Source: Candidatus Lindowbacteria bacterium RIFCSPLOWO2_12_FULL_62_27 (GTDB taxonomy: Bacteria > Lindowbacteria > 2-12-FULL-62-27). Taken from it: a DNA stretch of 11,919 nucleotides. Shown piece by piece: positions 1 to 10,611 of the stretch; position 1 is the stretch's first letter; every line of letters starts with the position of its first letter. Both the position numbers and the translations under genes were made by a program. The notes beneath the pieces are model-generated. The model did not search any database and was not told the origin of the DNA. It worked only from the letters and a program-made list of their open reading frames with translations. Location: contig MFPR01000039.1 in the NCBI GenBank assembly GCA_001784175.1, positions 1 through 11,919 on the forward strand. Reading direction: 5' to 3'.

Positions 1-1
1 C

Positions 2-217
2 GAGCCGACGACGACGGAGACGCTGAAGTTCACGGGACTGCGCGAGGACAAGAAGGCCTACATCCCACCGTCCGAGCCGACAACGACGGAGACGCTCAAG
101 TTCACGGGCCTGCGCGAGGAAAAGAAAGCCTACGACCCACCGAGCGGTCCGACGACGACGGAGCCGCTCAAATTCACGGGACTGCGCGAGGATGAAAAAC
201 CATATATCCCGCCGGCC
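2..217 (+). repeat. Three tandem 72-bp coding repeats
   Basis: The units are 2-73, 74-145 and 146-217, in frame with the upstream coding sequence. They differ mainly at third positions and by a few substitutions (for example Ile to Asp in the YIPP joint of unit 2, and Glu to Gly at the start of unit 3). The array may continue upstream of the window. The 23-nt block that ends the LKFTGLR coding part of unit 3 recurs in the next gene near 1054-1076. Confidence 0.9.
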
Positions 218-322
218 GAGCCGGTGACGCCGAAAGTACAACCCCTGTCTCTGACCCTGACTCCGGAAGAGGGCAAGGGCGGCGTCCTGTCCACTTCCGC
301 GACCGTGACTTCCGATGAATAA
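2..322 (+). CDS. C-terminal fragment of a Pro/Thr-rich repeat protein (partial)
   Basis: This frame is open from the window edge to a TAA at 320-322 and gives 106 residues; the start lies outside the window. The visible part is three tandem copies of a 24-residue unit with the core [13 protein letters not shown] followed by a KKAYIPPS-like Pro-rich joint. A polar tail rich in Pro, Thr and Ser and ending TVTSDE follows. No catalytic motif, membrane segment or Cys is present. One degenerate copy of the same unit ([12 protein letters not shown]) lies between domains of the next protein, at 1011-1076. The two proteins are therefore related or have exchanged linker cassettes. The fragment is probably the end of another secreted surface protein of the same operon. 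Its function cannot be named. The stop overlaps the most upstream ATG of the following gene by 8 nt. Confidence 0.8.
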
Positions 323-3300
323 CGCCCGTCCGTTGCCTTTGAAACGATTGACGGTAATCGGTCGGTCAAGGGCAGAACCCATTACCACGAATGGGTTCGA
401 ATGTCACAAATATCCACCATACGGTAAAGGTTTTATTCGTTTAATTCGTGTTAATGGTTTTCCGGCGTTTACCGATGGGTTCCGATTGACGCTGTCTGTT
501 GTCTCTTGCCTGTTGCCTCTAATATTTTTTCAAACCCTCTCGGCCCACGCGATGCAGATTTTTGTCAAGACCGCAGCAGGCAAGACGATCACGCTCGACG
601 TCGAGCCGAGCGACGGCATCGAGAACGTCAAGGCGAAAATTCAGGATAAGGAGGGAACACCTCCGACGGAACAGAGCCTGAAATTCGCCGGCAAACAACT
701 CGACGACGGTCGGACGCTCTCCGACTACAACATCCAAAAAGAATCGACGTTGCATCTCGTCGTGAAGAAACAATCGTCCGCGGAGGCCAAAATTTCGTTC
801 TGGGCATACTCGGGCGCCACCGTGCGCGCGACCGTGGCCGGCGGCGTTGCCCCGTACAAGTACTCGATCCAAACCAACAACTCCGGCGCGTCAGTTTCAT
901 CGGACGGTCTCTACACCGCCGGTTCGACGGCCGGCGTCACCGACATCATCCGCGTCACTGACGACAACGGAACATATCTCGAAGGCAAGGTCGAGGTGCG
1001 CGCCATCCCTAAACCCTACATCCCGCCCAGCGAGCCGACGACGACCGACCCGCTCAAATTCACGGGACTGCGGACGGAAATCGCGAAGCTCTCAATCGAG
1101 CCGCCCTACATCACTCCGGATGCGCCGACGGCCGGCGACCTCTTGACGTGCAATCTCAATGGGTTCACGGGCAATCCTGTCGAATTCAAATATGAATGGT
1201 TGATCACCGGCCAGGGAATGGTTGACAAACGGCTTTCGGAAATGAAAATGCCCGACAGTCAAAAAAATGTGTTTCAGACGCAAGTGGGCTGGCCGTCGGT
1301 AGAATTTAAATGCGAGGTCACCGCGATCGGCAGTGACGATGCGAAAGTCACCGCCGTCTCACCACCCGTCACTCCGAAGGCCTCTACCGAACTCGCGATC
1401 AACCCCAAACAGACAAAAGTAAAGACCGGGGGCATGTCCAACTTCAACGCGCTGAACGGCACGGGCAAATTGACGTTTTCAATATCGGAGAATAACTCGG
1501 GCGCGTCGTTACAAGAGATGGTGGGGAATGCTTCAGCAACCTCCTACAAAGCCGGCGCCACCGCGAATGTCACCGATCGCGTGCGCGTCACCGACGAGGC
1601 CGGCAAATTCGCCGAGGCCACGGTGGATGTCTACATCGGGGTTACCATCTCCCCGGCGGTGGGAGAAGCCAAGCCAGGCGGCGAGTTTCAGTTCACGAGT
1701 TCTGGCGGCGTCGGCAAGAAGACGTTTTCCATTTTATCGGATCCGGCCACCGGGCAGTATGGAACAACAAACACCAAGTCCGGCGCGTCGATCGACCCCG
1801 TGACCGGTCTCTTCAAATCCGGCGCGAGCGCTTCGTTCGAAAATGTCAAGGTTCAGGACGAGGCATACGATCAGGCGTATGCGAGCGCGCAGGTCAAGGA
1901 ACCGGCGGTCCCGCCTGCAATGACCGGGAAGCCCGTCATCACGCCGGGTAAACCGTTCGTCGGCGAAAAGCTGACCTGCAGCGATGGAGACTGGACCGGA
2001 AATCCTTACTCCTACGCGTATGACTGGAAAAAACCATCAGGCCTGATCCAGCATGGAGGGAATACCTACATAACCGTCGACGTGGACTTCGGGCAGGAGA
2101 TCACTTGCGAGGTCACGGCAACCAACCAATACGGAAACGTATCGGCGCTTTCCGACCCTGTCGTTCCCGGGGTCAAGGAGGGTCTGCCGGCCCTTGAGGG
2201 CGATCCGGTCGTCACGCCGGAGAAGCCGTTCGTGGGGAATACCCTCACCTGCGACCAAGGTAAATGGAAAGGCGACCCTACCGATTACTATTATCAGTGG
2301 TTCAAGGATAATTGGAAAGATCCGCAACAGACGAGTCAGACATACACAACGACGTCCGGCGATAAGAATAAAAGTTTCTACTGCGAGGTGGTCGCGGAGA
2401 ATGGCGTCGGGAAGTCGCTTGCCGCCAAGTCCAACACGGTCAAGGTGACCGCCGGCCCGCCGGCCAACTATAAGTCGCCGACCGTCGACCCGGGACTTCG
2501 CAAGGACGACGGGAAGTTCACATGTATGAATGGAAGCTGGACCGAATACCCCACGTCCTACACCTACCGCTGGCTGATCGACGGCGTGGAGGTCGAGGCC
2601 GCGACGGAGCAGAACTACGCGCCGACGCCGTCGGACGCGAACAAGCCTATCACCTGCGAGGTAACGGCGGTCAACAACACCGGCACGTCCGAGCCCGCGC
2701 TATCGTCCAATCACGGCATCTTCCAGCTCTCTACGCCGAAGGGCCAACCGAAGATCACCCCTGCGAACGGCACATTCGGCGATGTCTTTACCTGCGACAA
2801 GTCTTCGTGGACTTTCAAGCCCGACACATTCCTTTACCAGTGGCGCAGGAACGGCGCGGACATTCCCGCCGCCACCTCGACGACCTACCAGGCGGGGGAT
2901 GAAGACATGAAACAGAGCCTCACCTGCGTGGTCACGGCGTATCGGCCGGGCCTTTCCGAACCGGGAGTGGGAACCTCGGATCCGGTGACTCCGAATTGGT
3001 TCCAACCGAACCAACTCGGCGCGCCGACGATCAGCCCGACGTCGTTGATGGTCGGTGAGATGCTCACCTGCGATCCGGGACAATGGAGCGGCAAGCCGGC
3101 GATCACGTATCAGTGGTACAGACAAGGATGGGAACAGATCGCGAACGCGACGGAAACGACTTATGTCACGGCAGAGAAGGATGCATGGCAGGAAATCCAC
3201 TGTCAGGTAGCCGCGACCAATCCCTCAGGTGTCGCAACGGGGACGTCGAATAAGGTCAAACCGAGCGCTCCGGCGCCCATGAATACCGATTCTCCAACAC

Positions 3301-6300
3301 TGACTCCTATCGAGCCGAAAGTCGGCGAGAAGCTCACCTGCGATAAAGGCGCGTGGACCAACGCAGCCTCCTTCACATACAAGTGGTACATCAACAACGT
3401 GGAGTCGTCGTGGCGGGCAAAGAACGAGTATCTCCAGACGTCAAGTTCCAGCGGCGACGCGGGCAAGGAGTTTTACTGCGTCGTGACGGGAAAATCGGCC
3501 GATCCAAACGGGCCGACGGCTTCCGCCCGTTCGAACACTGTCATTCCGAAAGAGCCTCCGCCGGTCGCGTCGACAAGTCCGTCGATTTATCCGAAGGAAC
3601 CCTTCATTGGAGATGCTCTGACCTGCAACCCGGGAAGCTGGAGTCCATCTCCGGATAAAGCCGTTTACCAGTGGCGGCGGGACGGCGAGGACATCGAGGG
3701 CGCGACGGGCAAAGCCGAACTCGGCATGTACGCGACTCCACCGAAGTATACGACTGTTCTGGCGGACGGCTTGAAAAAGATCACCTGCGTCATCTTCGCG
3801 TATAATAAGTCCGGCGATTTCGCGACTGGCGTTTCGAACGAGGTTGTTCCCAAATTCAAGGCGCCGGTGAACACGATTCGCCCCGTGTCTTCTGCCAGTA
3901 AGACCACGAACAACGGGATTCCGAAGGGCGCGACCCTGACGTGCGATACCGGCGTGTGGAAGAATTATCCCACGGATTACTCCTACCAGTGGATGAGAGG
4001 GAGCACGAAAGACCAGACGAAAGGGACGAAGATTCCGGACGCGACATCCAAGGATTACGCGGTAGCGCCGGCAGACGGCGGCATGTACGTCTGGTGCGTG
4101 GTCACGGCCACGAACTCAGCCGGATCGGCCGAGGCCCCTTCTTCGACTGTTTTCCTCATCATTAAGTTCCCCCCGGCCGGCGGCGTACCCACCCTTTCGC
4201 CGGGCAAGGCGCTTGTTGGGGAAAAACTCACCTGCGACGCGGGTACATGGACGCCAACGCCCTATTCTTATACACATACATGGTATCGGGACGGCAAGGA
4301 ATTCTGGGCGCCAAGCGGCAGCGGCGCTCCACTCGACCCCAAGGCGCAGTATCAGACCGTCGCCACGGACGTGGGCAAGATATTCACCTGTGAAGTGACC
4401 GCAAAGGAAAAGAACGGCGTCGCCTCGGACCCGGCCACGTCAAACGAGGCCACGGTGATCTGGCCGACGATCGATACATCCGCAATAACCGTGAAAGTCA
4501 CGCCGGCCGCTCTCGTAGAGGATGCGCATCCGGTCGAACCCCAGCGTCTCGATTGCGCTCCGCAAGACTTTAAGATCGACCTGGATAATTTCACATACAA
4601 ATATTCCTGGTTCCGGGGTGGAGACAAGGTTTCGGACAAAACCGGTAAAGAATATGTGACAAGCATCGATGACGCGGGCAAGGATATGACCTGCGCCATG
4701 TCGGTGTCGAACAAGGGCGACGAGTTATTGGGATCGTTCCCGTCCGTCAATTCCGTGACCGTGACGCTTCGAAAGCCGGTAATCACGTCGCTCGAAATCC
4801 CCATTGACAAGGAAAGCATGACCGGCAAGCTGACCTGTTCAGGGAAGTGGAAGGGGCAAGCGGACGAGGTCAAATACTGGTGGGAGGTCGACGGCGTCGC
4901 GATTCCGGGCGCGAATTCGAACGTCTACCAGATGGCGGCGGCGGACAACAAGAAAGGACTCACCTGCGCGCTCAAAGTCTCCAACAAGGCCGGCGATGAC
5001 AGCAAGAAAAGCACGCTCACGATCCCCGAAGTGACGGCAACCCTGCGGCCGACCAGCCCGGCCTTTAAGGGAAAGACGGAGGAACTGGCGAATTACACCT
5101 TCCCACCGGGCAGCGTGTTCGACTGCAAAGCCGGCGGTTGGACTGAGGGTACCAAGTACGCATACAAGTGGCTGATAGACGGGGTCGAAATTCCGGGCGC
5201 GAAGGACGCCTCATACACGGCGCCCATGGATCCGGCGAGTCAGAAAATCAGCTGCAAAATCACCGGCGACGATTTCTTCGGCGAACGCTCGGCGCTGAGC
5301 AATCCTGTGGCCGTCCTGGATACCACGTTCAGACAAACTGAATTTACGCCCGAAAAACCGAAGTATGACGGAACCATTAAGCAAGAAGTATTCGTGGGAG
5401 GCCTAGAACATAATGCGGCCACGCAGAATGTGCGGCTCAAGTGCAATCCCTCCAAGGAGTGGGACGCAATCAGCGCCGACAATTGGACGCTTACATGGTA
5501 TAAGGACAACGCCGTTCATCAGCGTAATACCAAGAAAGGACAAGCGGGAAACGATCCGGCGATCACTTACAATGCTTTGTCGCCGAGTAATGGGTGGTAT
5601 TTGGGGCTGGCCGAGGCCGACGTTGGCCATACGTTCACATGTGAATTCACCGCCACGGAAGGTGGCACTGCAAAGACCGGCCGCTCCGCGCCATTCATGG
5701 CCACGGCGGGGGCGAAAGCTTTTTATATTGACCAGGGAGAACTGTTCGCACCGGAACCGCGGAAAGATCCGAATCTCACGTTCGCTGACCAACAGGTCAT
5801 GGGGGGCAGGAACGAGGCGACCTGCAACGTCGGCACGGGCTGGAGTCCGCCCGCGCCGTTCTCGTATCGAATCACGTGGTACAGAAACGGCGACCCCATC
5901 AAGGAGGAGAATATCGACCTGCCGAAGAACAGTGTGAAGTACACGCCGGAATATTCTTTTCCGGACATGCAGCGTATTTCGTGCGAGGTTGTGGCCGCCC
6001 GCTATGCGATGAAGATGAAGGTGTCAGTGACGTCGGGCAGTCTAATCTACGATGTCGGCGAATCCCCAAAAGATCCGACCGTCTGGGTCTTGACCAATCC
6101 CAATGGGAATACAGAAACGGTGAAAAAGAGCGACCTGCCGTCCGGCTATGAGTTGTACATCGATTATGACGCATCTGCCCTCGTCGAACGACGCCCCTCG
6201 TCGAATCATCTGATCGTGATGTACAATGGCGTGCTCCAACCCGTGGATGCCGCAGATACTTGGGGCGTGGCAACCGGCGCCGCCCCGACGTCCACAGGCG

Positions 6301-6644
6301 ATGTCACGCTTTACACCGCCGGCAAGATATCGGGATCGATGACGTTCACCCGGCGCGTAGACAATGCAAACGTTATCAAAGCCGGCGGATCGGACTTTCC
6401 CAATAACACAACAAGCATGACGTCCAGCGCCACGGCTTATGAAATTATATCGACTACCAAAGGCCTTACTCTTCTTCTGACGCCGACGACCACCAAGTCC
6501 TCCGTAAAATTTGCCGTACAAGCGACCTATGCCAACGCGTTTGCCATGAAGTCATACACGATTAACATAGAACTTCGCAAAGAGGGATCCTACATTTCGC
6601 TGGACAAATTCAAGCTGACCATCGATCCCGGGAAGGGAGGATAA
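315..6644 (+). CDS. Giant secreted ubiquitin-Ig repeat fusion protein
   Basis: This 2109-codon frame encodes a Sec signal peptide with a hydrophobic run at about residues 60-76 and an AHA cleavage site at 77-79. A ubiquitin domain follows at 80-152 (MQIFVK to LHLVVKK). Next come an SGA-type Ig domain (about 158-231), a [12 protein letters not shown] linker (about 233-254), one Cys-Trp-Cys Ig module (first Cys 279) and two more SGA-type Ig domains (about 357-531). Fourteen further Cys-Trp-Cys modules run to Cys1890, and a Cys-free beta-rich C-terminal domain covers about 1913-2109. No sortase motif, type IX sorting signal or transmembrane anchor is evident. The likely role is an extracellular stalk or adhesin displaying ubiquitin at its N-terminus; this is inferred. 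The start is uncertain. ATG 315 overlaps the upstream stop but has no Shine-Dalgarno and reads through hairpin and repeat DNA. The only other in-frame start before the signal core is TTG 486, which gives a 22-residue signal peptide. Confidence 0.9.
375..398. repeat. Perfect 9-bp inverted repeat (possible hairpin)
   Basis: GAACCCATT and AATGGGTTC are separated by the 6-nt loop ACCACG, starting 53 nt after the upstream stop. There is no following T run, so it is not a classical intrinsic terminator. A TTCGTG-type repeat tract (about 429-460) follows. Both look intergenic in character although they sit inside the longest frame from ATG 315. This favours a downstream start for the ubiquitin gene. 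Confidence 0.6.
552..779 (+). other. Ubiquitin domain (residues 1-76 equivalent)
   Basis: It aligns without gaps to eukaryotic ubiquitin from Met1 to residue 76, with 60 of residues 1-70 identical by direct count. The differences are L8A, T9A, E16D, T22G, I36T, D39T, Q40E, R42S, I44K and E51D, then 71-76 VKKQSS in place of LRLRGG. Lysines 6, 11, 27, 29, 33, 48 and 63 are all present, plus a new Lys44. The Ile44 patch (8, 44, 70) keeps only Val70, and the Ile36 patch (8, 36, 71) is lost. The conjugation tail is missing and the chain simply continues into Ig domains, so the domain cannot be activated by an E1 in the usual way. Codons are G/C-ending like the neighbours, so any transfer has been ameliorated. 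Confidence 0.97.
786..1007 (+). other. SGA-type bacterial Ig domain, copy 1
   Basis: The coded domain has the pattern GG-x-x-P-Y-x-YSI, then [16 protein letters not shown] and [10 protein letters not shown]. It recurs as copy 2 (about 1384-1638, with NNSGASL and VTDRVRVTD) and copy 3 (about 1639-1911, with [12 protein letters not shown]). Copies 2 and 3 are adjacent and are separated from copy 1 by the linker and the first Cys-Trp-Cys module. The pattern resembles Ig-like repeats common in large secreted proteins of environmental bacteria. The domain contains no Cys. Confidence 0.75.
1011..1076 (+). repeat. Isolated copy of the upstream gene's 24-residue linker unit
   Basis: The coded segment [21 protein letters not shown] matches the tandem units at 2-217, including a 23-nt near-3' block identical to unit 3. 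It joins the first SGA-type Ig domain to the first Cys-Trp-Cys module, which fits an interdomain spacer. Confidence 0.85.
1107..6056 (+). repeat. Fifteen Cys-Trp-Cys Ig-like modules
   Basis: Each module of roughly 85-115 residues follows the pattern P-x-(I/L)-x-P, (V/I)-G-x-x-LTC, G-x-W, Y-x-YxW, (D/N)G, then ITC-x-VTA-x-N and (S)N-x-V-x-P. The first Cys of module 1 is residue 279, of module 2 residue 555 and of module 3 residue 646; the last Cys of module 15 is residue 1890. The two SGA-type Ig copies interrupt the run between modules 1 and 2. Every module has exactly two Cys, at the B- and F-strand positions of an Ig fold, with a Trp between them. Modules 11-15 are the most divergent, with longer insertions in 14 and 15. 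Confidence 0.9.
6635..6640 (+). promoter_or_regulatory. Strong Shine-Dalgarno of the glycine-rich protein gene
   Basis: GGGAGG ends 9 nt before ATG 6650 and lies within the last codons of the upstream gene (stop 6642-6644). It fixes the start at 6650 and indicates co-transcription with the ubiquitin-Ig gene. Confidence 0.85.
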
Positions 6645-6649
6645 TCGTC

Positions 6650-8953
6650 ATGACGGATTTCCCGCGGATTCTGCGCCGGGCGATGTTGCCTCTCCTCTGT
6701 CTCTTGCTTTTGAATACCGCCGCGCGGGCCGACGATGTCGTCGAGGTCGCAAAACCGTCGGCCGCCCGGGAGTCCTACGCGCCGGGCGAGGACGTGACGA
6801 TCCAATCCGAGGTGAAGAACACGAAGGCGTTTCCGATCCTCGTCGTCGCGCGGCTCCGCGTCATCGGGCCGGACGGGACGGAAATCTACAATGAGGAGAA
6901 AGACCTGGGCGAAATCGCCGGCAAGGCCGCCGCGATGGCGTCGTTCACCCTCAAGCTCCCCGCGGATGCCGGGGCCGGCGATTATTCCGCGACATTCGAA
7001 CTGCGAAACCCATATTTCGCCACAGCCTCCTACTTCCAGAACAAGGGCAAACCCTTCGTCGTCTTCGAGGTCAAACTGTCGGAAGGCGCGAGGGCCGATC
7101 CCATCAGCGAGGCCAAAAAAATCCTTTCCCGCATGGTCGACGCGATGAACTGGCGCGACATCGACGCCCTCATGGACCCCGTCGCCCGCGGCGCGCGGGT
7201 GTCGATGAACGGCAAGGCGTCGGGCGCCGGAGATTTCCGGATGGCGCTGTCGTCTGTCCTCCCGTTTCTGTCCGACCTTGTCTGGGACGCGCAGGTGACG
7301 CACGGCACGATCGATCCGAAAACCGGCGCGGTCCGCCTCCGCGTCCGGTCGACCTATTCGGCCAAACTCGCCGAACCCGTCGGCGTCACGTCGGCTTCGC
7401 TGGCCAAGCCGAAGGACCTGGAATCCGAGCAGAAACGCATCACGGAGGCGTTCAACACGTCGGCGGAGGAGATATATGAGTTCAACCGCGCCGCGGGCGG
7501 CCAGTTGCAGGTCACCGAAATCGTCTCGGCCCTGCCGCTCGACGCCAAACTGCTCGATCGCATCGCCCTCATGGGCGCGGAGTGGGAGGCCAAGGTCGCG
7601 GTGTTCGGGCTGTTTTATTACATGGAGCAAAACGATCTCGGCAAATTCAGCGCGATGATCGACGATGGATTCGTCAACAATGACGACAACGGATTCAAAC
7701 ACAACAAGGCCGATTTTATCGAGTCCATCAAAGCCGACCTCGACCATCTCACCGCCATCGACCACAACGTCCGCGTCGAGGACATCCAGTTCAGCGCCGG
7801 GCATTCCGCCGCCCGCGTCCCCGTCACATGGGACCGCCGCGCCCGCATCGCCAACACGAGGTCGGAGTGGACCGTCAAGGATCAGAAGACGACCATGACG
7901 CTGAAATACGACGCCGGCTTCAAACTCGCGCAGATCGAGGGCAAGCCTTTGTTCGGCAACTCGAGCCGGATGACGAGAAAGACGCTGATCGGCGCGGGCG
8001 AACTCGACGGAACGACGATCACGCTGGCGATCGCGATCAGCGACGCGAGAGAGACGGCCGTCGCGTCGTCGTCCGACTTTCCGGGAAGTGAGTTGACCAA
8101 CGTCTTGGCGCCGTCCTCCGGATCGTCGCAAACATTTACCTATACCGGCGCCGTGCAGACCTTCACAGCGACCGCGAACGCCGTGTTTACCATCAAAGCC
8201 TGGGGCGCCGGCGGTGGCGGCGGCGGATGGGACGCCGGCAATGGAGGCGCTGGCGGAGGCGGCGCCTATTCGACGGCAACGGTCACTTTGGCGAAGGGCG
8301 ATATTATTCAGATCTATGTGGCCCAAGGCGGTGACTCGGGGGCCAGTGAAGTCGGCAACATTGGTCTCGGCCCCGTCCTCGGCAACGGGCCGGGCGGATT
8401 TGGATATGGGACGGGCGGCCGGGGCGGAAACGTCGCCAAATTTGCATCCGGCGGCGGAGGAGGCGGTGGTGGATCGTCCGCGGTTACGAATCAAAGCGGA
8501 GCGACGATCTATCTGGTTGCGGCCGGCGGCGGCGGCGGCGGTGGCGGGAATTCGGTGGGTGTTTTAAATGGTGGAGCGGGCGGCGCTGGCGGTGTGAGTG
8601 GAACGGCATCCGCCGGCGCAGGTGGAGCGACCGGCGGTTCCGGATCAAAAAATGGAACCAACGGTGACGACAAGGGCGTGGGATTAGACGGCGGCGGCGG
8701 TGGCGGCGGCGGTGGCGGATATACCGCCGGCGGCACGGGCGGCAGCGTGACTGCGGTCGATGATGACGGCGGCGGGGGCGGTGGGGCCGGAGGAAACAGC
8801 ACCGGCACAGTCACGACCGGCAACGGCACAGTGCCCGGCAATTCGGCCGACGCGGATTTGACCGCCCTCGCGGCAGGCGGCACCGGTTCTACCGCAAATG
8901 TACCCGGCAACGCAACCCGCGGCGGCCACGGCCTGGTCAAAATATCATGGTGA
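6650..8953 (+). CDS. Secreted protein with CARDB-like, two NTF2-like and ALK/LTK-type glycine-rich domains
   Basis: The 767-residue product begins with a signal peptide (RRAMLPLLCLLLLNTAARA, cleavage after Ala27). Residues about 34-125 read as a CARDB-like Ig domain: YAPGEDVTIQSEVKN, then a balanced PADAGAGDYSATFELRN strand pair. Two NTF2/SnoaL-like cone folds are suggested at about 152-245 (AKKILSRMVDAMNWRDIDALMDP) and about 308-430 (VFGLFYYMEQNDLGKFSAMIDD, then SEWTVKDQKTTMTLKYD). From about residue 495 the chain becomes a glycine-rich domain opening FTYTGAVQTFTA and IKAWGAGGGGGG and ending GGHGLVKISW. These are the usual first and last strands of the Gly-rich domain shared with ALK/LTK receptors and bacterial surface or phage proteins. 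The gene starts 5 nt after the upstream stop. The function is unknown; an extracellular binding or matrix role alongside the ubiquitin-Ig protein is inferred. Confidence 0.88.
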   Translation: MTDFPRILRRAMLPLLCLLLLNTAARADDVVEVAKPSAARESYAPGEDVTIQSEVKNTKAFPILVVARLRVIGPDGTEIYNEEKDLGEIAGKAAAMASFTLKLPADAGAGDYSATFELRNPYFATASYFQNKGKPFVVFEVKLSEGARADPISEAKKILSRMVDAMNWRDIDALMDPVARGARVSMNGKASGAGDFRMALSSVLPFLSDLVWDAQVTHGTIDPKTGAVRLRVRSTYSAKLAEPVGVTSASLAKPKDLESEQKRITEAFNTSAEEIYEFNRAAGGQLQVTEIVSALPLDAKLLDRIALMGAEWEAKVAVFGLFYYMEQNDLGKFSAMIDDGFVNNDDNGFKHNKADFIESIKADLDHLTAIDHNVRVEDIQFSAGHSAARVPVTWDRRARIANTRSEWTVKDQKTTMTLKYDAGFKLAQIEGKPLFGNSSRMTRKTLIGAGELDGTTITLAIAISDARETAVASSSDFPGSELTNVLAPSSGSSQTFTYTGAVQTFTATANAVFTIKAWGAGGGGGGWDAGNGGAGGGGAYSTATVTLAKGDIIQIYVAQGGDSGASEVGNIGLGPVLGNGPGGFGYGTGGRGGNVAKFASGGGGGGGGSSAVTNQSGATIYLVAAGGGGGGGGNSVGVLNGGAGGAGGVSGTASAGAGGATGGSGSKNGTNGDDKGVGLDGGGGGGGGGGYTAGGTGGSVTAVDDDGGGGGGAGGNSTGTVTTGNGTVPGNSADADLTALAAGGTGSTANVPGNATRGGHGLVKISW
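8935..8951. repeat. 17-bp direct repeat, left copy (att-like)
   Basis: GGTCAAAATATCATGGT encodes the end of VKISW in the glycine-rich gene. It is repeated exactly at 9550-9566 on the far side of the toxin-antitoxin pair. The bases on either side of the two copies differ. Confidence 0.85.
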
Positions 8954-8970: not shown

Positions 8971-9294
8971 TTATGGATACTTTATGGTTGTCGCCCGTCC
9001 ACGTTTTGCAATGGGCAGTTCGGCAAGAATCATGGGTACAAGACGCTTCAAGTCGGAAAGTTTATTCGTGGGTGCGGCGAGAATCAGGACAGCGATGTTT
9101 AACGCGGCAAGATTCTGCTGATGAGGGAGGTTTTGATCGACCGTGATGAATACGTCGAATTCTTTTTCGCAGAGAGACAACAATCTGCCGTTCCGGACGC
9201 CTTTCCATCTCATGTCCTCGACAGTTTTGACGTCATGCCCGGCGATTTCCCCGGCTAACCGGCGGTCAATGCATTCGTCAAGCAGTATCTTCAA
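8971..9294 (-). CDS. DUF5615-type PIN-like toxin (pair 1)
   Basis: The 107-residue product starts (L)KILLDECIDRRLAG and contains DVKTVEDM and DVFITVDQNL. The early Asp and the Asp of TVDQNL are the acidic positions typical of Mut7-C/DUF5615 PIN-like nucleases, which partner DUF433 proteins. The start is TTG 9294, one nucleotide after the TGA of the antitoxin. The family normally begins exactly here, and the longer frame from ATG 9405 would add 37 low-complexity residues read across the antitoxin gene. No Shine-Dalgarno is visible, so translation is probably coupled to the antitoxin. The gene ends convergently 17 nt from the glycine-rich gene. The predicted function is an RNase toxin; activity in this family is poorly documented, so a housekeeping or degenerate role remains possible. 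Confidence 0.87.
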   Translation of the reverse strand: MKILLDECIDRRLAGEIAGHDVKTVEDMRWKGVRNGRLLSLCEKEFDVFITVDQNLPHQQNLAALNIAVLILAAPTNKLSDLKRLVPMILAELPIAKRGRATTIKYP

Positions 9295-9295
9295 T

Positions 9296-9505
9296 TCAGA
9301 ATGGGCCGGCCAGTACTTTCGACTTGGCTTCCTCGAGGAATGCGATGACCTGATCACGGCTGACCGTCGGGAACCCGTCGAGGAACTCATCGATGGACGA
9401 TCCATCTTCCAGGTATTCTATCAGAGTCTGGGCGGGCACTCGGGTCCCCGCAAATACGGGTGTCCCACTCATAATTTGCGGGTCAACAATAATCACGCTG
9501 TTCAT
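9296..9505 (-). CDS. DUF433 antitoxin-like protein (pair 1)
   Basis: The 69-residue product has the DUF433 signature: PQIMSGTPVFAGTRVPAQTLIEYLEDG, then IDEFLDGFPTVSRDQVIAFLEEA. The C-terminal part forms a small helical DNA-binding-like unit. DUF433 proteins occur next to DUF5615 PIN-like genes and are treated as their antitoxins. The ATG at 9505 has no Shine-Dalgarno. A promoter-like -35/-10 pair ends 6 nt upstream of it, which suggests a leaderless message. The stop is followed after one base by the toxin TTG. Length is normal for the family. Confidence 0.88.
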   Translation of the reverse strand: MNSVIIVDPQIMSGTPVFAGTRVPAQTLIEYLEDGSSIDEFLDGFPTVSRDQVIAFLEEAKSKVLAGPF

Positions 9506-10016: not shown

Positions 10017-10373
10017 TCAGCCTGTGCGATGGACGCGGACGGACGCCGGCCGGATCAAAAAAATACGGCCGGAGGTTTCTTTGTTGCCGTATCGATTGAG
10101 AAAGGCAGTCAGAATGGGATGAAGGACTTCAATCGTCTGCGGTCTAATGCGGAGGATGACAACACCGGGATGGGACTTCCCGGCGCGAAGAGCGCGCAGT
10201 CCGAATCCTCGGTCGAATGTGATCAGCACACGATTGCGGCGGCACGCCACGGCAAAGACCAGATCGTCGTCCGCGCCGGGCTGGATGTCGCGAATCTCCT
10301 CGACGTCCGAGCCGAGGGATATCAGGAACGTCCCGGTTTCCGGGGAAAGATTCTGGTCAAGAAGAATGCGCAA
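10017..10373 (-). CDS. DUF5615-type PIN-like toxin (pair 2)
   Basis: The 118-residue product begins (M)RILLDQNLSPETGTFL and continues DVEEIRDI, ADDDLVFAVACRRNRVLITFDRGFG and HPGVVILRIRP. The Asp of LLDQNL and that of TFDRGFG are the expected acidic residues of the PIN-like Mut7-C/DUF5615 fold. The start is TTG 10373, directly abutting the TGA of the antitoxin with no gap, which implies coupled translation. The last 25 or so residues (GNKETSGRIFLIRPASVRVHRTG) run beyond the usual family end and may be a read-through tail. It is clearly divergent from the pair 1 toxin, so the pairs are not a recent duplication. Confidence 0.88.
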   Translation of the reverse strand: MRILLDQNLSPETGTFLISLGSDVEEIRDIQPGADDDLVFAVACRRNRVLITFDRGFGLRALRAGKSHPGVVILRIRPQTIEVLHPILTAFLNRYGNKETSGRIFLIRPASVRVHRTG

Positions 10374-10592
10374 TCAGGTGAGAGGGACTTCTTCGGTCAT
10401 TCGAACGGCCGACGCCGCATACCGGATGGCGGCTTTGACGTCGGCCCGCGTCAAATCCGGATAATGCCTGAGAATCCGCGGAATGTCATATCCGCCCTCG
10501 ATGAGGGACAAAATGTTGGCCACCATGATGCGGGTCCCATGGATGTGCGGCTCTCCGTGACAGATCTTCGGATCACTCTCGATGCGTTTCAT
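10374..10592 (-). CDS. DUF433 antitoxin-like protein (pair 2)
   Basis: From ATG 10592 the 72-residue product reads MKRIESDPKICHGEPHIHGT, then RIMVANILSLIEGGYDIPRILRHYPDLTRADVKAAIRYA. This is a full-length DUF433 protein, the usual antitoxin partner of DUF5615. An ATG at 10610 would add six residues (MPYDMG). It is disfavoured because the family normally begins at this MKRI-type position and because a good -10 box lies between the two ATGs. The stop abuts the toxin start. The protein may bind the inverted repeat over its own promoter; this autoregulation is inferred. Confidence 0.88.
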   Translation of the reverse strand: MKRIESDPKICHGEPHIHGTRIMVANILSLIEGGYDIPRILRHYPDLTRADVKAAIRYAASAVRMTEEVPLT

Positions 10593-10611
10593 GCCCATAT
10601 CGTATGGCATG
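10590..10611. promoter_or_regulatory. Palindrome over the -10/start of TA pair 2 (operator candidate)
   Basis: CATGCC-(C)-ATA-TCG-TAT-GGCATG forms 9-bp arms with one bulged C. It covers the -10 box and the ATG of the antitoxin. Type II antitoxins commonly repress by binding such sites, so this is a plausible autoregulatory operator. Pair 1 shows no obvious equivalent. Confidence 0.5.

Follow-up and report, generated by a model that had tools for sequence, protein, structure and literature searches.

The stretch of DNA analyzed here (the window; 11,919 bases) is contig C39 of a 4.39-Mb, 94% complete genome of a Candidatus Lindowbacteria bacterium. It begins with the 3' end of a gene (positions 2 to 322, plus strand) whose product consists of repeats and a tail; the tail also ends the FecR-like protein encoded upstream of the ubiquitin gene in relatives. 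An open reading frame of 2109 codons that carries a ubiquitin domain follows (315 to 6644, plus strand), and 5 bases downstream of it lies a second gene (6650 to 8953, plus strand) encoding a signal peptide, NEW3-like and SnoaL_2-like stretches, and a Gly-rich tail ending in GLVKISW. The last gene, cut by the contig end (10635 to 11918, plus strand), encodes a protein judged by eye to be exported, beta-strand rich, and outer membrane-like, with no Pfam match. Between the second and the outer membrane-like genes, two gene pairs of the DUF433/DUF5615 type, resembling toxin-antitoxin modules, are located on the minus strand (8971 to 9505 and 10017 to 10610); in the former pair, Pfam scored DUF5615 just below its cutoff.

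A first-pass annotation had described the giant gene as encoding a signal peptide, a gapless ubiquitin domain identical to eukaryotic ubiquitin at 60 of 70 residues, and a stalk of Ig-like repeats. Alignment and Pfam confirmed the domain, and the open reading frame, the cleavage motif, and Pfam showed the remaining features to be real. Aligned with human ubiquitin, codons 80 to 155 (nucleotides 552 to 779) matched without gaps at 60/70 positions over residues 1 to 70 and at 60/72 over residues 1 to 72, and the Pfam ubiquitin profile (PF00240) placed the head in the ubiquitin family with an E value of 2e-24. The domain itself occupies positions 552 to 767 (plus strand), as likeness to ubiquitin ends at about residue 72. 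All seven lysines are kept, the substitutions include L8A, R42S, and I44K, and residues 73 to 76 read KQSS in place of LRGG, the C-terminal feature of conjugation. Structure prediction with AlphaFold2, which the first-pass annotation had proposed for the head plus the first Ig domain, yielded a ubiquitin beta-grasp fold (pLDDT of 87 to 93 over residues 1 to 70) followed by a strand-rich domain. The closest PDB structures to the predicted head were ubiquitins (0.5 to 0.7 Å rmsd over 71 columns).

The signal peptide region (315 to 551, plus strand) ends in AHA directly before the ubiquitin methionine (AHA|M), so that cleavage would make Met1 the mature N terminus. The true start may be ATG 315 or possibly TTG 486: the former gives a very long N-region, and the proteins of relatives begin ∼33 to 37 codons ahead of Met1. 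Behind the head, a first Ig-like domain (792 to 1004, plus strand; FWAYSGATV...YTAG...DIIRVTD) leads into the remainder of the stalk, consisting of ∼14 Ig-like repeats with cysteine pairs plus a C-terminal region (1005 to 6644, plus strand; Pfam Ig_2, E = 1e-26). The whole protein contains 32 cysteines, and the final stretch of its C-terminal region looks similar to that of the protein in the related genome G001. Beyond ubiquitin and Ig domains, Pfam found no other match of note in the window protein and recognized no anchor, neither an autotransporter barrel (PF03797) nor SLH domains. From this layout, the protein would be exported by Sec, with signal peptidase I cutting exactly ahead of Met1, and the mature molecule would consist of a long Ig-repeat stalk, attached to the cell envelope, that carries a nonconjugating ubiquitin head. 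As the N-terminal tip of such a stalk, the head would be its free and probably outermost end.

Ubiquitin is a plausible eukaryotic contaminant, and a four-unit polyubiquitin ending in GGF in a Nitrospinota MAG (L032) is probably one. Still, an artefact of assembly or contamination that linked a ubiquitin of eukaryotic origin to a bacterial gene is exceedingly improbable at the window locus. Genes with a ubiquitin head were found in all three genomes of the phylum examined, which represent three genera and were separately assembled. There were six such genes in total, three of them in the genome of the window (on contigs C41, C39, and C9). The signal peptidase site lies exactly before Met1 in 6/6 of these genes, and the first Ig-like domain is kept together with the head in all six as well. 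Between copies (the most diverged, L003, left out), ubiquitin dN was 0.11 to 0.19 at dS of ∼0.5 to 1.7 or saturated, and in every pair it was below the dN of the next Ig domain; a low dN alongside synonymous sites near saturation, with dS mostly ∼1 to 1.7, indicates that the head is kept by selection within the phylum. Codon usage of the ubiquitin part matched the remainder of the gene (score of 0.20 versus 0.15 ± 0.08). Together, the six genes, the substitution pattern, and the matching codon usage exclude, as far as assemblies show, a chimera at 540 to 780, which the first-pass annotation had regarded as a possible objection. Isolates and a complete plasmid also carry a ubiquitin gene.

The copy on C9 (L003, G000:C9:1-1052) is the most diverged, with 40/72 residues identical to human ubiquitin, and has an in-frame stop inside a repeat that is shared with window positions 1 to 240; this short gene may be truncated or reflect an assembly effect. 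Because C39 and the end of C9 are the only places in the genome with the repeat array, the two contigs are probably neighbors, broken apart at the repeat in the assembly. One of the six genes, on contig C129 of G001, was also found in a groundwater MAG (JACQOF01; L007). In a tree of heads, 72 columns gave no resolution of origin, and a single clade for the six heads of the phylum was not rejected (p-AU = 0.40).

The gene neighborhood is likewise partly conserved. An exported FecR-like protein is encoded just upstream of the ubiquitin gene on C41, in G001, and on both contigs of G002. These proteins end in PPLSLTVT..EGKG...STVTS, a tail that the upstream gene of the window keeps. The name FecR-like refers to the look of the sequence, as the neighbor gave no significant Pfam match and a poor structure model (pLDDT of 50). 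The second gene is 62% identical to the gene in the same position in G001, where the order FecR-like/ubiquitin/second gene is complete. On C41, its homolog is fused to the end of the ubiquitin reading frame and makes up the C-terminal part of that frame. A relative of the outer membrane-like protein (62 to 75% identity over the compared part) is also encoded beyond the second gene in G001. The ubiquitin protein would be coproduced with the conserved exported protein encoded downstream and, usually, with a FecR-like protein encoded upstream.

BilABCD and Bub types are bacterial cytoplasmic ubiquitin-like conjugation operons with E1, E2, and deubiquitinase genes. They share with the window the presence of a ubiquitin-like protein in bacteria, but the window encodes an exported fusion, and no conjugation-type gene is seen in its cluster: no E1, E2, or deubiquitinase gene is among the window neighbors (FecR-like, NEW3/SnoaL-like, and beta-rich). 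A profile search of the three genomes of the phylum with PF00179 and PF00443 gave no match, with control profiles equally silent.

Outside the phylum, ubiquitin of eukaryotic grade is rare: in a broad sample, none of the other 383 bacterial genomes scored above 40 bits against ubiquitin. A scan of GTDB with search patterns that select residues 1 to 5 and 23 to 30 retained at least 80 loci. Leaving out duplicates, the polyubiquitin contaminant, and tandem-ubiquitin lake MAGs, we compared 79 distinct heads, including those of the window lineage. Among the matches listed, the signal peptide/ubiquitin unit occurs in scattered genomes, isolates included, of about ten other phyla, among them Pseudomonadota, Bacillota, Bacteroidota, Actinomycetota, Verrucomicrobiota, Chlorobiota, Cyanobacteriota, Campylobacterota, Coprothermobacterota, and Synergistota, along with one marine archaeal MAG. 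In that euryarchaeal MAG (L066:6001-6279), the unit is followed by a long passenger. Signal peptides were assessed by a rule-based check of motif and hydrophobic core. Among the matches listed, a −3/−1 signal peptidase motif stands exactly at Met1 in 77/79 heads, with a hydrophobic core ahead of it in 75/79. The strict AxA form precedes Met1 in 54/79 of these listed heads, compared with 0 to 6 at neighboring offsets.

What follows the ubiquitin varies widely. Among the 73 listed proteins outside the window lineage, the passengers included PF03797 autotransporter barrels (19 proteins), SLH domains (7 proteins), T9SS (3 proteins) and IPTL-CTERM (3 to 4 proteins) sorting tails, and InlB, Big, fn3, and beta-helix stalks; in the smallest autotransporters (L015), ubiquitin is nearly the entire passenger. 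The modules behind it are unrelated to one another; what recurs is the placement of ubiquitin at the front of exported proteins, which often are surface anchored. The window protein resembles autotransporter (type Va) and SLH proteins in this arrangement of N-terminal passenger and stalk, which in 19 and 7 of the 73 listed relatives, respectively, is completed by an anchor; it differs in having ubiquitin as the N-terminal domain and neither of these anchors. The architecture, which the first-pass annotation had considered possibly undescribed, differs from the free-standing secreted ubiquitin BfUbb of Bacteroides fragilis, but it is not unique: the signal peptide/ubiquitin/surface protein build is present in many phyla, more widely than that annotation had supposed.

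Several further occurrences were recorded. Lake actinobacterial MAGs (L039, L043, L048, L059, and L079) contain ubiquitin reading frames that lack clear signal peptides and lie in shifting frames; in several MAGs they form neighboring pairs or triplets, and a similar stretch (VTYQ...) comes after each. A Lysobacter isolate (L078:5941-6309) and an IMG/VR contig (L100:3001-3228) encode free-standing, signal peptide-bearing ubiquitins in which the RGG end is retained; these would be exported and, in principle, conjugatable. Plasmid records gave three matches, of which the only strong one was the complete Ruminococcus albus 7 plasmid pRUMAL01 (L099:4923-5663), where the gene is annotated as "ubiquitin family protein" amid small hypothetical genes. 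No match was found in phage records, and carriage on mobile elements was rejected. IMG/VR yielded 10 loci, including five signal peptide-ubiquitin fusions that continue into a longer passenger or an IPTL-like tail and may be host DNA. Three loci in which ubiquitin stands between a signal peptide and an IPTL-CTERM-like tail (L105, L106, and L107) could be prophage or host DNA, and two in which a complete ubiquitin is joined to another ubiquitin-like domain (L101 and L102) are likely from eukaryotic viruses.

Residue conservation across the heads was markedly uneven. Among the matches listed, the conjugating Gly-Gly is lost in 78/79 heads and present in one. Mean identity to human ubiquitin in the same set was 0.95 in the core, 0.80 on the surface outside the Ile44 face, and 0.57 on the Ile44 face (Mann-Whitney P = 0.001), dropping to 0.03 to 0.09 at residues 74 to 76. 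Residues 1 to 5 and 23 to 30, being selected by the search patterns, were excluded when averaging over the core and the general surface, and the other identity values are still inflated because the seeds favor near-human sequences. The triad L8/I44/V70 is intact in just 29/79 of the listed heads, and the window head carries L8A and I44K. The least conserved face is therefore the one that eukaryotes use most for binding, which speaks against a binding head and would equally well fit a mere cap, that is, a stable, fast-folding ubiquitin that shields the mature N terminus and helps long repeat proteins to fold or be exported, with no partner of its own. Such a role would also suit passengers that are mutually unrelated and always preceded by ubiquitin as the first domain. 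Any small stable domain would serve this purpose, however, yet the listed heads have a median identity to human ubiquitin of 83% (inflated by the search patterns), and the exposed residues E18, D21, K33, E51, D58, and K63 are each more than 90% conserved among them. We consider a purely structural cap possible but somewhat unlikely.

The same data weaken classical host mimicry, one of the uses suggested in the first-pass annotation. As a mimic or decoy, a displayed ubiquitin could engage protist or animal ubiquitin receptors or enzymes; similarity to the eukaryotic protein is very high, several of the listed carriers are gut or rumen bacteria, and roles for extracellular ubiquitin have been reported in animals (review, PMC10892293). 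Against this stand the altered Ile44 face, the loss of the tail that the enzymes use, and the groundwater source of at least one relative (L007), and we regard a eukaryote-directed function as quite improbable.

The nearest known system is BfUbb, a free, antibacterial ubiquitin of 76 residues secreted by some B. fragilis strains (PMC3352274, PMC5705921). As in the window protein, the signal peptidase I site lies exactly before Met1, Gly-Gly is lost, and the bacterial exporter has no recognized conjugation system. In contrast to free-standing BfUbb, the window ubiquitin forms the N-terminal head of a repeat protein 2000 residues long, encoded in several copies and kept across the phylum. By analogy, the head could be what makes the protein antibacterial, inhibiting competitors upon contact or once freed from the stalk, given that BfUbb, with the same junction and likewise without Gly-Gly, inhibits B. 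fragilis strains (PMC5705921). A fusion of 2000 residues would need processing, though, and neither an immunity gene nor a cleavage site was recognized beside the ubiquitin gene. Moreover, bovine ubiquitin is inactive, so that antibacterial activity requires special residues (PMC5705921). Antagonism of this kind is an unlikely explanation for the window protein. The secreted ubiquitin extension effectors of plant-parasitic nematodes, as outlined in PMC5705921, also carry their signal peptide immediately ahead of ubiquitin and are extended at the C terminus; they are eukaryotic, with a short extension of 12 residues that is cleaved in the plant, whereas the window protein has a giant Ig stalk and has lost the cleavage site.

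Our preferred reading, to which we assign a probability of about one-half, is that a nonconjugating, exported ubiquitin head tips a surface protein and acts there as a displayed interaction module. The head would be adhesin-like or a contact tip, in which the ubiquitin fold rather than ubiquitin chemistry is put to use. This reading is supported by the predicted fold, the position of the domain, the signal peptidase motif, the loss of Gly-Gly, conservation within the phylum, and gene order, and the anchoring domains of relatives in other phyla support a displayed head as well. We infer that the window protein itself is located at the surface and that its head binds something. Extended to all carriers, the pattern might tentatively be read as one bacterial strategy, in which an export-ready, tail-less ubiquitin cut at Met1 was joined repeatedly to surface proteins in about ten phyla as an outward binding head for a common kind of ligand; we hold this broader proposal to be rather doubtful.

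Ubiquitin is regarded as a hallmark of eukaryotic intracellular signaling. B. fragilis was called one of few bacteria with a copy of eukaryotic-like ubiquitin in the 2017 BfUbb paper (PMC5705921). Our search of the open-licence literature found no description of ubiquitin-headed surface proteins, which apparently are undescribed as a class. Many carriers are culturable isolates, which puts experiments on the function within immediate reach. Here, a whole lineage retains ubiquitin for a different, extracytoplasmic use, and elsewhere ubiquitin has apparently been fused to surface proteins repeatedly.
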